A stretch of DNA of 48,881 bases, taken from positions 1 to 48,881 of the forward strand of contig DASYRE010000012.1 in assembly GCA_036004685.1 (NCBI GenBank), written 5' to 3'. This DNA comes from Candidatus Polarisedimenticolia bacterium (lineage in GTDB: Bacteria > Acidobacteriota > Polarisedimenticolia > Gp22-AA2 > AA152). The position numbers were made by a program, and so were the translations under genes. The notes beneath the pieces are model-generated. The model made no database searches and was not told the DNA's origin. It worked only from the letters and a program-made list of their open reading frames with translations. This document shows, in pieces, positions 9,824 to 14,769 of the stretch; the stretch's first letter is position 1, and each line of letters opens with the position of its first letter.

Positions 9824-10237
9824 ATGCGCTACGTCACGTTGATTGCTCGAGTCCTGTTCGGACTCGTGTTCACGGTGTTCGGGCTCAATGGGGTCCTGAT
9901 GTCGCTCTTTGGCAAAGGATTCATGCCGATGCCGAAGGAGATGCCGGAGGCGGCCGCCTCTTTCTTTCAGGCCATGATGAACACCCGATCTTCTTGCCCT
10001 TGCTTGGCGGCGTGCAATTCGTCGCTGGCCTGATGGTTCTGACGGGGGTTCCTCACACCGCTGGGTCTAATTCTCCTGGCGCCCATCGTCGTCAACATTT
10101 TCTTCTACCATCACTTCGTCGATGCGACCGGCCTGGTAATTGCCTACGTAGTCCTCGCGCTGGAGATCTTTCTAGCCTACGCTTACGGACCTTCCTTCCG
10201 CGGAGTCCTCGATCCTCGCGCGAAGCCCCGTTGGTGA
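9824..10237 (+). pseudogene. DoxX-like membrane protein gene with two compensating frameshifts
   Basis: Read in one frame the product stops at 10033. Reading frame 1 to about 9986, then shifting to the next frame to about 10050, then returning, gives a continuous protein of about 137 residues: RVLFGLVFTVFGLNG, then PIFLPLLGGVQFVAGLMVLTG, then FLTPLGLILLAPIVVNIFFY, ending GVLDPRAKPRW. This is the four-helix DoxX-type inner-membrane fold. Both breaks fall in homopolymers: one C appears lost in the acccg run near 9987 and one G gained in the ggggg run near 10049. They could be sequencing or assembly errors, or real mutations. A strong Shine-Dalgarno sequence (gaaggaggagg) precedes the ATG. Function of the family is poorly defined. 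Confidence 0.75.
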
Positions 10238-10241
10238 TGCA

Positions 10242-11771
10242 CTAAGGGCGCGTCCGGAACAGGAAAACTTCCCGGTTCGCCGGCGTCATCGGTTCCCTAC
10301 CGTAATCCCTTCTTCGCGTGATCACGAATTCCGCTAGCTCGGCAGGTGCCTCGTACTCCCCCGCCAGAAAATAGCGGAGGGCCTTGCCTTCACCGGCGAA
10401 CTCGTCCGGCTCCGCGCCAAGCAGCACCTTGCGTCCCGGTCCGAGGGCGGCGCGGATGGCCGCGAAATCGACGCTCCGCGTGTTGAACGGGCGGGCGAGA
10501 TTCGCTTTCTCGGCGCGCAGCGCAACGCAGGACCAGGCGAAGAGGACGAGCGCAGCGGGGAGGACGACCCAGGTCGGCCAGCCGGAGGTCCGATCGAGCA
10601 ACGCGTAATAGAAGACGAGGGCGAAGCCGACGTAGAAGAAGCTCTGGTACTCGTGGAAGGCGCTGAAGTTCTTCAGGGGGATCGTCCAGAAGAAGCCGGA
10701 AAGAAGGACGGTGCCGAGGACGACGCGATTCCCGCGCACACGCATGAACCGCCATACCAGAAGCGCTGCTCCGGCCAGGGCCGCGGCGAGAACGAGGAAA
10801 GGCCGGGCGTCGGCGGCGTTGCCGAGCTTGGAGACGGCGTCGTGCATGGCGCCTGCGGGCAGGGACGCCTTCATGACGCGGCGGGCCTGCTTGGTGAGGA
10901 AACGGGTCCAGCGGATCTCGGAAGCCTCGGCGGCGCCGGCTTCCTCCGACGCGACCCCGGTGCGGAAGAGGATAGAGCGGACCGAAGGCAGGCTCGTAAG
11001 ATTCCCGCCCAGAACGCGCCATTCGTTGAGAAGATTGAAGGCGAGAAGGAGGGCACCGAAGAGCAGCGCCGCCCCCAGCGCCCGGGTCGGCTCCCTGCGG
11101 ATCAGGCCGCGAAGCGTGGAACTTGCTCCTCCGCTCGCCCTCCGCACGCTCCCCACGAAATCCACCACCCACCAGGCGGCGAGCGCGCCGAAGGCCTGCC
11201 ATCCGAAGCCGACGCCGATTGCGACTCCGGCATAGAGAATCCCCCTCGCGCCGTCCCTCTCGTAACGCGCGATGCCGAGCAGGATGAGGAGGAAGCCGAA
11301 CAGGGCGGGTATGTCGTTGTAGATCATGTCGCCGTAGTACTGCAAGTAGTAAGAAGAGAAAGCCAGGATCGCCACGGCAGCGGCGAGGAGCGGCCGTCCC
11401 GAGATCTCGACCATCAGCAGATACGAAACGACCATCGCCCCACCGAGCAAGAGGATCATCAGCAACCGCGCTGCGGCGATCTCGCAGAGTACGTCGCCGC
11501 CGCACGGCAGCATCGCCGCGCGGATCAGCAGGAAAGCGGGGATGGGCAGGCGGTTGTGGGGGTCGAGCTGTACGCGGCCGGCGGCGTCGAGATGGGCGCG
11601 CGAGAACATCAGGAAGCCGTGGGTGGGGCCGAGGTTCTTGGCGAGCGCCAGGGCGAGAGTGCTGTTGTAGCCGTGATGTCCGGGAAGAAAGCCGGGATCG
11701 CGGACTCGCAAGGTGAAGAGAAGCGCGAGGGCGGCGCCCACGGCAAGGCCCGCGGCGAGGCGCTGCTTCAC
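10242..11771 (-). CDS. Polytopic membrane protein, GT-C glycosyltransferase-like
   Basis: This encodes 509 residues with about ten hydrophobic segments, starting with a single N-terminal helix followed by a loop containing DPGFLPGHHGYNS. The arrangement (first helix, an acidic/His loop, many further helices, soluble C-terminal tail) is that of GT-C enzymes such as ArnT, PMT and RgtA-like proteins, which use polyprenyl-phosphate sugars at the outer face of the inner membrane. I see no motif that fixes donor or acceptor, so the family call is tentative. The GTG at 11771 overlaps the stop of the rhodanese-channel gene, so translation is coupled. It is the last gene of a four-gene operon and ends four bases from the DoxX-like gene on the other strand. 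Confidence 0.75.
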   Translation of the reverse strand: MKQRLAAGLAVGAALALLFTLRVRDPGFLPGHHGYNSTLALALAKNLGPTHGFLMFSRAHLDAAGRVQLDPHNRLPIPAFLLIRAAMLPCGGDVLCEIAAARLLMILLLGGAMVVSYLLMVEISGRPLLAAAVAILAFSSYYLQYYGDMIYNDIPALFGFLLILLGIARYERDGARGILYAGVAIGVGFGWQAFGALAAWWVVDFVGSVRRASGGASSTLRGLIRREPTRALGAALLFGALLLAFNLLNEWRVLGGNLTSLPSVRSILFRTGVASEEAGAAEASEIRWTRFLTKQARRVMKASLPAGAMHDAVSKLGNAADARPFLVLAAALAGAALLVWRFMRVRGNRVVLGTVLLSGFFWTIPLKNFSAFHEYQSFFYVGFALVFYYALLDRTSGWPTWVVLPAALVLFAWSCVALRAEKANLARPFNTRSVDFAAIRAALGPGRKVLLGAEPDEFAGEGKALRYFLAGEYEAPAELAEFVITRRRDYGREPMTPANREVFLFRTRP

Positions 11772-13021
11772 GTGATCTGGCGCGCCAGATCCTGGATGCG
11801 GTCCATCCAGGCCTTCATGTCGGGAGCGTATTCGCGCGGGACGCAATCTCCGCAGACCTCTCCGGCCAGCCTGGAGACGGTGTCGAGGGTCCTCCCGAGC
11901 GTCGGCGAACGCTGCCGCGCCCCTTCCACGCAAGCGACGACCTCGGTCATCTCGCGCATCGTCGCGGCCAGGCCGGCCAGGATCGACTCCAGCACGTCCT
12001 CGTCGGGAAGCTGCTGGGGGCGGTACAGGAGGTCGTGGATGTCGCGCAGCTCGCCGGCGAAGACGGTGGCGGCGCTCTCCACGCGCACCAGGATCCGATC
12101 GGGCCTTTCCTGCCGCACGGCGCAGAGCGCCGAGATGGCGTGGAGATCGGCCAGGAGAAAGTGGAGGTTGGTCCGAATCCGATCCAGCCGGTCCTCGAAT
12201 CCGAGACGGTGCAGCTCCTCGGTGAGCTTCTCCTGCCGGCGGGAGACCATCTTCGAGATGACCGCGCCCCACAGAAGCAGTCCGACTCCGCCTTCCAGGA
12301 TAGCCAGCCAGCGGAGGCTGCCGACTGGGGTGAGGTCGCCGTAGCCGATGGATAGGGCGGTCACGAAGCTGAAGTAGGTGGCGCTGAGCAGGTCGGCGAA
12401 CCCCGACCCCAGGGGACGGGCGGCGCTCCGTATTCCGTCGCCGCGCAGCGCCGTCCAAAGCCAGTAGATCGCCCCCATGCCCACGACCATCGCGAGCCAG
12501 ATCGAAAGCAGCCGGGCGATCGACCATTCGGCGATGCGATCGAGCAGCCAGGAGGCGCGGCCCGGTCGTGCCGGGGCGGGACGGGAGACCGGCGGCGCTG
12601 CGCGCGCGCCCCCTTCGCGCTGGGACGCATCCCGCTGGGCGGGCAACAGCGCGGCGACGGGGGGTAGCGGCGCCTCTCCCCTCTCGACTTTCTCGCCGTG
12701 ATCCTTCCAGTCCTGCAAACCGCCCGCATAGTCCCGCACGTTCTCGTAGCCCATCTCGCGCAGCAGACCGACGGCCTGTTTGGCGAGGGGTCACGTGAAG
12801 CTGCCGCAGTAGACGATGATCTCCTGCTTGCGATCGGGAAGGATCTCCGGCGATTTCTCGCGCAGCTCGGCCACGGGCAGGCTGAGCGCCCCGGGAATGT
12901 GGCCGGATTGGTACGAGGCCTCGGGCAGGACATCCACGATCGCCAGGCCTTTCTCGCCCTGGCGCCGGTGGACTTCTTCCCAACTCACCTCTTCGCTGCT
13001 GCGCACCACCTCGGTCGGCAT
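11768..13021 (-). CDS. Rhodanese-potassium channel fusion with in-frame UGA (candidate selenoprotein)
   Basis: One continuous frame of 418 codons (including the stop) is interrupted only by a UGA at 12793-12791. Before it lies the first half of a rhodanese domain (SWEEVHRRQ, IVDVLPEASYQSGHIPGALSLP, then the active-site strand IIVYCGSFT). After it lies the second half (PLAKQAVGLLREMGYENV, DYAGGLQDWKDHG). A two-helix potassium channel follows, with the selectivity filter SIGYGDLTP and a long C-terminal cytoplasmic helical region. The UGA falls where I recall related rhodaneses having a second Cys (YCxSxxC). A hairpin of suitable size and distance follows. Read-through as selenocysteine, a fresh nonsense mutation or a base error are all possible. 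Without read-through no good start serves the channel: the first ATG (12754) lies inside the rhodanese fold. The ATG at 13021 follows GAGGA; a GTG at 13036 overlapping the upstream stop is the alternative. Confidence 0.75.
12764..12793 (-). other. In-frame UGA with SECIS-like hairpin
   Basis: On the minus strand the UGA is at 12793-12791. Eighteen bases lie between it and a three-base loop GTC (12772-12770) closed by the six-pair stem CAGGCC / GGTCTG (12778-12773 with 12769-12764, one G-U pair). Bacterial SECIS elements are hairpins just downstream of UGA, with a G among the first loop bases and a UGA-to-loop distance of roughly 16-37 bases. This hairpin fits that description. Short hairpins are common in GC-rich DNA, so it is supportive and not proof. 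Confidence 0.5.
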
Positions 13022-13032
13022 CGGCTCGGTCC

Positions 13033-14769
13033 TCACCAGGCGTTCTTGTAGATGGGCTCGATCTCGATCGGGACGTTGCGCAGACGGTCCAGGTCCTTCT
13101 GTAGATCCTCAGGGACGCTGCCGTATTTGGCGAAGAGAGCCCCGGCGGCGCTGCGGTCGCCGGCGCGCTCGATTTCCAGCGCCTTCTCGGCCAAAGCGCG
13201 GATCGAGTCGCGCATCTTGGGGGTCACGACCGACCAGCGGCCGGTGGCCGCGTCGCGGCGGATGGCGCCGCGCTCGCGCCCGAAGTTGAGCTCCACCATG
13301 CCCGCACGGCCGTGCGCTTCACTGGCCCCGAAGCGTACGGAGCGGAAGATGCCGCCGAGGTAGGAGGCGTAATGCTCCTCTTCGGAGTCGGCGGGCATGA
13401 CGCCGTGGTCGAAGAACCAGGCCATCGACACCAGTCCCGCCACTGTCGCCTTCATCTCCTCCAGCGGAGAGTAGAGGTCCCCGATGCGCTCGTTCACCGG
13501 CACCTTCTCGCCGGTGCCGCGCACGTAGCGTGGCCCCAGGGCGTGCGAGATCTCGTGCATCAGGACGTCCTCGAAGACGCCGCGAGGGGTAACCTTCACC
13601 GCCTGCTCATGCACCAGCAGCTCGCGGCTGATGGGCAGGATGACCTGGTTGACGCGGGCGTCCATGACGTTCTTCCAGAAGATCTTCTTGCTCCCCTTCG
13701 CTTCGTGCACCCGGGGGTCGTTCGGCAGGTTGGTGGCCACGGCCTGGTAGCCGTAGTTGAGGTCGCCGCCGCGATAGATGTCGCGCACCACCACCATCGG
13801 CGAAGAGAGGGTCCCGACCTTTCGGCGGTCCTGCTCCGGGTACGGCAGGTTGTCCTCCAGCTCCTGCAGGTGGGACACGTACGTCTTCAGGCGATCGCTT
13901 TCGACGGCGTCGCGCACGGCGACCGACGCTTCGTAGGTCGCCTTCACCCCCATCAGTCGGTCGTCGTAGACCTCGAAGGGGCCAAAGACCAGCTCGTAGG
14001 GCGTGTCCCGCAGATCGATCCAATCGCAGTCGCTGGCGAAGAAATCGTCGCTGCGCAGCGCCTTGGCGCGCGAGCGCAGGTAGCGGGTAAAGGAGGCGTT
14101 CTGCGAGAGCGCCGCCGCCGCTTCCAGCTCGCGCGCGGCCGGCTCGATCCACTGCGCGTAGGCGACGTGGTAGGGCACGGTCACCAGCTTCTTCCCTGCG
14201 CGGCGCACGAGGGTGTGGGGGGAGAGCAGGCGCTCCTTCTCCTCCGGATGCGCGGCGAAGTAGGCGTCCAGCTCCTCCTTGGTGAGGTCCTCCGGATAGA
14301 AGCCGGCTCCGGGCGGGGCGGGACGGCTGCCGGTGAAGGACTTGAACTCGTCGAAGCGATCGAAGGGACCGGCGTTGAGCAGGACGAGGCGGTACAGCGC
14401 CTGAGATTCGGGATCCTTGGCGCGCGCCAGGCGGTCGCGGATCTCCACGGCCTTGGGATCGGACTGCCGCCAGAAGATGGCGTCGATCTGCTTGCCGGCG
14501 GCGATCAGGTGCTTGAGGAGCTGCTTGTCCTTGGCGGGGAGGGGCCGGGCATCGAAGCTCATCTCCGCCTTCGCGTAGCGGTCGAGCATGGCCTGCAGCT
14601 TCCGGGGCACGTTCTTGCCCTCAGCGACGTTCTTGCTCTCCGGCATGTTCTTGCTCTCGGGCACGTTCTCGCTCCCGCCGGGGCCTCCCGGCTTTCCCGC
14701 CGCCCACGCCAGGTCCGCAGCGAGAAGAACGATCGCGACGAAGGCAAGACTCCTACCTTGCGTGCTCAC
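13033..14769 (-). CDS. Exported M49-like zinc metallopeptidase homologue
   Basis: This encodes 578 residues. Residues 1-23 are a signal peptide (FVAIVLLAADLAWA), followed by a stretch of six-residue repeats (NVPESK type). The rest resembles the peptidase family M49 (dipeptidyl peptidase III) in arrangement: a zinc-binding HEISH (His405, Glu406, His409) and, about 28 residues later, an EEMKA segment (Glu437-438) matching the family's third ligand region. Classical DPP III has HExxxH with one more residue, so this belongs to the HExxH-bearing relatives seen in bacteria. It is probably periplasmic or lipid-independent and exported; substrate is unknown. The GTG at 14769 follows GGAGG with five bases of spacing; 25 codons of open frame upstream lack a signal-like start. 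Second gene of its operon. Confidence 0.8.
   Translation of the reverse strand: MSTQGRSLAFVAIVLLAADLAWAAGKPGGPGGSENVPESKNMPESKNVAEGKNVPRKLQAMLDRYAKAEMSFDARPLPAKDKQLLKHLIAAGKQIDAIFWRQSDPKAVEIRDRLARAKDPESQALYRLVLLNAGPFDRFDEFKSFTGSRPAPPGAGFYPEDLTKEELDAYFAAHPEEKERLLSPHTLVRRAGKKLVTVPYHVAYAQWIEPAARELEAAAALSQNASFTRYLRSRAKALRSDDFFASDCDWIDLRDTPYELVFGPFEVYDDRLMGVKATYEASVAVRDAVESDRLKTYVSHLQELEDNLPYPEQDRRKVGTLSSPMVVVRDIYRGGDLNYGYQAVATNLPNDPRVHEAKGSKKIFWKNVMDARVNQVILPISRELLVHEQAVKVTPRGVFEDVLMHEISHALGPRYVRGTGEKVPVNERIGDLYSPLEEMKATVAGLVSMAWFFDHGVMPADSEEEHYASYLGGIFRSVRFGASEAHGRAGMVELNFGRERGAIRRDAATGRWSVVTPKMRDSIRALAEKALEIERAGDRSAAGALFAKYGSVPEDLQKDLDRLRNVPIEIEPIYKNAW
14606..14677 (-). repeat. Four tandem 18-base repeats in the metallopeptidase gene
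   Basis: Units at 14606-14623, 14624-14641, 14642-14659 and 14660-14677 share the core gttcttgctctc and encode variants of ENVPES / KNMPES / KNVAEG just after the signal peptide. They make a hydrophilic linker whose copy number could vary between strains. Confidence 0.85.

Follow-up and report, generated by a model that had tools for sequence, protein, structure and literature searches.

A predicted selenocysteine in the rhodanese domain of a rhodanese-potassium channel fusion protein from the Polarisedimenticolia

We found that a gene on the minus strand of the window (the whole stretch of 48,881 nucleotides analysed here) very likely encodes a selenoprotein of unusual build. The gene is complete, spans positions 11768 to 13036 and comprises 422 codons, and its predicted product consists of an N-terminal rhodanese, a linker, a two-helix K+-type channel and a C-terminal helical domain. 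Codon 82 (12791 to 12793, minus strand) is an in-frame TGA that we read as selenocysteine (U82). Both this decoding and the rhodanese-channel architecture are inferred from sequence comparison, with high confidence; selenium in the protein has not been shown.

The GTG start at 13036 overlaps the stop codon of an upstream M49-peptidase-like gene (GTGA), and an ATG at 13021 is another possible start. A preliminary description of this DNA had reported a UGA interrupting an otherwise continuous frame after the strand VYCGSFT. It did not state that the gene lies on the minus strand; its interval, 12764 to 12793, is nevertheless right and comprises exactly the TGA and the hairpin discussed below. 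The TGA stands directly behind VYCGSFT, five residues past the catalytic cysteine of the rhodanese, C77 (12806 to 12808, minus strand), which gives the motif C-x4-U. The same description held that rhodanese sequence resumes in frame and that 340 more codons remain open, and both statements stand: the sequence encoded after the TGA, PLAKQAVGLLREMGYENVRDYAGGLQDW, is the second half of the rhodanese, and the 340 open codons run up to a terminal TGA at 11770 to 11768. When Pfam was searched with a translation in which the TGA of codon 82 was taken as a residue, one rhodanese domain was found to span it (PF00581, residues 19-112, 68.8 bits; 12701 to 12982, minus strand). The structure model of this region matches rhodaneses in Foldseek.

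The ion channel to which the rhodanese had been proposed to be attached is real. An Ion_trans_2 domain (PF07885, residues 193-265, 44.5 bits against a cut-off of 22.5; 12242 to 12460, minus strand) is conserved in the orthologues and bears a K+ filter-like motif, TALSIGYGD, in which G-x-G-D is invariant across the six orthologues, with Y or F in between. The channel helices are present in the predicted structure model, and the domain has weak sequence matches to KirBac3.1, SthK and SK2. The C-terminal helical domain contains a CxxC (C395 and C398; 11843 to 11854, minus strand) and a further cysteine, C305, all invariant in the orthologues; we could assign to it neither a family, using Pfam, nor a fold beyond helices, using Foldseek with the structure model. 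The linker (residues 120-159) is poorly conserved and predicted to be disordered (pLDDT below 50). With a pTM of 0.39, the arrangement of the domains in the model is uncertain, and the placement of the rhodanese relative to the pore is not resolved.

Five more full-length rhodanese and K+-channel orthologues (L023 to L027) were found among 41 genomes of the class, 46-55% identical to the window protein over the whole length. The six fusion-bearing genomes fall into five families, one of which is represented twice (f1) and the others once each (f4, f8, f9 and f11). In a codon alignment of the six genes, there is a single column in which all have TGA, and no other in-frame stop is present. The frame past the TGA stays open for 307-340 codons, and on both sides of the TGA the GC content by codon position is coding-like, with third positions the most variable. 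C77, U82 and the CxxC are invariant in all six proteins, as are several residues shortly past the TGA (AVGLL, GY, VR, GG and W). When 396 genomes of the phylum were searched with a profile, no further fusion and no version of the fusion with Cys were recovered, and the sole match in a single-protein search of genome contigs was one unrelated rhodanese. The profile search did return one homologous channel without a rhodanese, L059 (G114:C174:2852-3778), which has the same C-terminal CxxC domain and adjoins a DNA-glycosylase-like gene. Because this rhodanese-free homologue retains the CxxC, the motif need not serve the rhodanese. Of the other fusion-bearing genomes, only that of the closest relative has the same genes beside the fusion, those for the M49 peptidase and a membrane protein, so that what is retained is the fusion alone. 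We therefore ruled out an operon-based assignment of function; this pattern of neighbours suggests that the fusion protein works alone.

The preliminary description had placed a cysteine at the UGA position in related rhodaneses, and the alignment bears this out. The U82 column holds Cys in L062 and L080 (YCSSRTC) and in L089 (YCANYQC), all from the same phylum, in a paralogue from the same genome, L068 (FYCSNPMC), and in BH2092, a rhodanese of solved structure (YCWGPACNGA). Such pairing of Sec and Cys among homologues is a way of recognising selenoproteins (PMC13188914). TGA, in turn, occupies the column in seven stand-alone rhodaneses of the phylum (one each in genomes G004, G005, G007, G064 and G217 and two in G382). 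These CxxxxU rhodaneses (L077, L078, L079, L081, L082, L083 and L091) come from several families of the phylum and have a common downstream hairpin; they look like an additional subfamily that is likewise new, with the caveats that no curated family was compared and that literature coverage was partial. Other candidates came to light along the way. The genome that carries the window encodes, with TGA again at the U82 column, a second rhodanese selenoprotein candidate, secreted-looking and with the sequence FYCHSER-TGA-MECH (L067; G000:C50:27514-27792, minus strand), whose Cys paralogue is L068, located elsewhere in that genome. Another genome of the class encodes a rhodanese with LYCT-TGA-P (L047, at about 1639 in its locus on G008:C75), in which the Sec position is of the CxU type, as in NF041203.

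As a check on Sec decoding, the preliminary description had named the presence of selA, selB, selC and selD in the same genome, and all four were found there. SelA scored 564 bits, SelB 302 bits (327 when a second piece was added) and SelD 369 bits, and the tRNA-Sec has the anticodon TCA (UCA). A second tRNA-Sec-like match, on contig C54, was rejected, as ARAGORN identifies it as tRNA-Ser. Across the class, selA is present in 39 of the 41 genomes, including all six that carry the fusion. The selD gene (L018; G000:C8:40973-41899, minus strand) has an in-frame TGA of its own in the active-site motif, which reads SSGG-TGA-AAK. Because of this TGA, the SelD of the host genome is itself likely a selenoprotein, and serves as an internal control.

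A hairpin with a GTC loop 18 nucleotides past the UGA had also been described, and it is present at 12764 to 12778 on the minus strand (CAGGCC-GTC-GGTCTG, with a 6-bp stem) as a putative bacterial SECIS element. On its own the window hairpin would prove little, because its folding energy is only mildly below that of shuffled sequences (z of about -1.2 to -2.0). Its position is common to all six orthologues: in the predicted folds of each, a hairpin lies at the same spot, with the stem beginning about 12 and the loop about 18 nucleotides past the UGA, and the loops, GUC, GUG or GGUCG, all bear a G. Pairing holds in 90.5% of the 42 cells of the orthologue alignment, compared with 29-57% when the register is shifted by one to three bases. 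There is one compensated pair (C-G to A-U), in which the change on the 3' side falls at a synonymous Leu position. The stand-alone rhodaneses have a different hairpin, 98% paired, with a compensated C-G to A-U pair of its own. Covariation in the orthologue hairpin is weak, being matched by 72 of 500 shuffles, and the stand-alone hairpin likewise failed this control (78 of 500), so that covariation leaves the SECIS assignment unproven. With covariation and folding energy only mildly above chance, it is plausible that the downstream hairpin is a SECIS element.

There are other ways in which a TGA could come to lie at this position. Were it a true stop, the locus would encode an 81-residue rhodanese fragment and a separate channel gene beginning at a downstream ATG, for example at 12754. 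Such an ATG does exist, and a conventional gene caller would give two ORFs, 12791-13036 and 11768-12754. The two products would, however, each carry half of a single rhodanese domain, severed inside its active-site loop; residues just past the TGA are invariant in all six orthologues; and the stop is in every case TGA and in every case at the Cys column. We regard termination here as highly unlikely. Alternatively, the TGA could have arisen through faulty sequencing or assembly, or a Cys codon could recently have mutated to a stop, as TGA is one base from TGC and TGT. The contig is not free of small errors or decay: a nearby gene for a DoxX-like small membrane protein (9824-10245, plus strand) passes from frame 1 to frame 3 and back to frame 1, an apparent frameshift pair that may reflect assembly indels or a decayed gene. 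Yet an identical TGA is found in six independent genomes from five families, as well as in the stand-alone rhodaneses. Sequencing error cannot account for a TGA shared at one column by six independent genomes, and the chance that error or recent mutation explains it is negligible. For practical purposes, sequencing error and a true stop are excluded.

Read-through by itself leaves the inserted residue unnamed, and the UGA could in principle be read as another amino acid, such as Trp, by suppression or a changed code. Against this, the relatives have Cys at the column, the genome contains tRNA-Sec and every Sec gene, all six genes encode Trp by TGG throughout, and TGA terminates genes in the window, the rhodanese-channel gene among them. 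We consider insertion of a different residue hardly credible. Of the refuting conditions set in the preliminary description, none that could be checked was fulfilled. There is no evidence against decoding of the UGA as selenocysteine, which would be carried out by the organism's own SelA, SelB, SelD and tRNA-Sec, with the hairpin just 3' of the UGA plausibly directing it.

We compared the window protein with known rhodanese selenoproteins, of which a 2026 review distinguishes five forms: UxxS, UxxG, CxU, UxxG and UxxxxU (PMC13188914). The nearest selenoprotein models in NCBIfam are TsoB and the LYCAU rhodanese, and the window protein meets the cut-off of neither. TsoB, a rhodanese/DsbD fusion-like selenoprotein (NF045694; form 5 in PMC13188914, where its definition is credited to Haft and Tolstoy 2025), likewise combines a rhodanese selenoprotein with a membrane domain. 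Judging from motif spacing, the second Sec of its UxxxxU probably occupies the same column as U82. It differs in having two Sec residues, the first presumably in place of the catalytic Cys that the window protein keeps, and in that its membrane part is DsbD-like, whereas the window protein has a channel and no DsbD domain; it scores 35.7 bits on the TsoB model, whose cut-off is 805. The single-domain LYCAU rhodanese-related (seleno)protein (NF041203, CxU) resembles the window protein in keeping the catalytic Cys and placing Sec in the active-site loop, but its Sec is at +2 from the Cys rather than at +5, and a channel is lacking. On this model the window protein scores 23.7 bits, where the cut-off is 115. 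The UxxS and UxxG forms (PMC13188914, PMC9312934) share the rhodanese fold with a UGA-encoded Sec; there Sec is taken to be at the catalytic position, where the window protein has Cys, its Sec being at +5. The Cys rhodanese BH2092 (PDB 3nhv, 3o3w) pairs the catalytic Cys with another that occupies the U82 column, and has neither Sec nor a channel. Among the bacterial K+ channels that carry cytosolic sensor domains, KirBac3.1 and SthK have a similar pore helix and K+ filter-type motif; in the window protein the extra domain is instead a Sec rhodanese, and its C-terminal CxxC domain falls into no named family. The word "channel" is absent from the 2026 review (PMC13188914), and neither a CxxxxU rhodanese selenoprotein, nor a rhodanese-channel fusion, nor a selenoprotein fused to an ion channel came up in our literature search. 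Since the window protein stays below the NCBIfam cut-offs and the five reviewed forms do not include CxxxxU, both its Sec motif and its architecture are, as far as can be told without protein data, new among rhodanese selenoproteins.

What the protein does is a more tentative matter. In the active-site loop of the rhodanese (C-G-S-F-T-U), the predicted Sec would come sixth, close to the catalytic Cys. We infer that Cys77 may be oxidised, or loaded with sulfane sulfur as a persulfide, and that Sec82 could then resolve it as a reversible selenenylsulfide. The Cys/Sec state of the rhodanese might be passed to the pore, possibly via the CxxC, and so control the channel, with the result that K+ flux would respond to redox state or reactive sulfur. 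A selenium-dependent K+ channel, gated by a rhodanese Cys/Sec pair that senses redox state or sulfane sulfur, is a possibility that we put forward with less than even confidence; gating and K+ conduction are both inferred, without direct evidence. It is also quite possible that, although Sec is present, the rhodanese acts simply as a sulfurtransferase, or as a peroxide or disulfide reductase, which the channel merely anchors to the membrane and which has no part in gating. The disordered, poorly conserved linker and the existence of a homologous channel without a rhodanese would fit such an anchor, while retention of the fusion over five families without conserved neighbours speaks against it, as does the fact that channels bearing cytosolic sensor domains are common in bacteria.

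To our knowledge, redox enzymes make up nearly all of the selenoproteins whose function is known. A conserved selenoprotein that is half ion channel would tie selenium to the control of membrane transport, and it provides a defined protein with which to ask whether reactive sulfur or redox state serves to gate K+ flux in bacteria. CxxxxU is a rhodanese Sec position missing from the curated selenoprotein lists that we examined, and gene callers will go on splitting genes of this kind into two at their UGA codon. If the proposed function is true, these bacteria would possess a selenium-dependent K+ channel gated by the Cys/Sec pair of a fused rhodanese.
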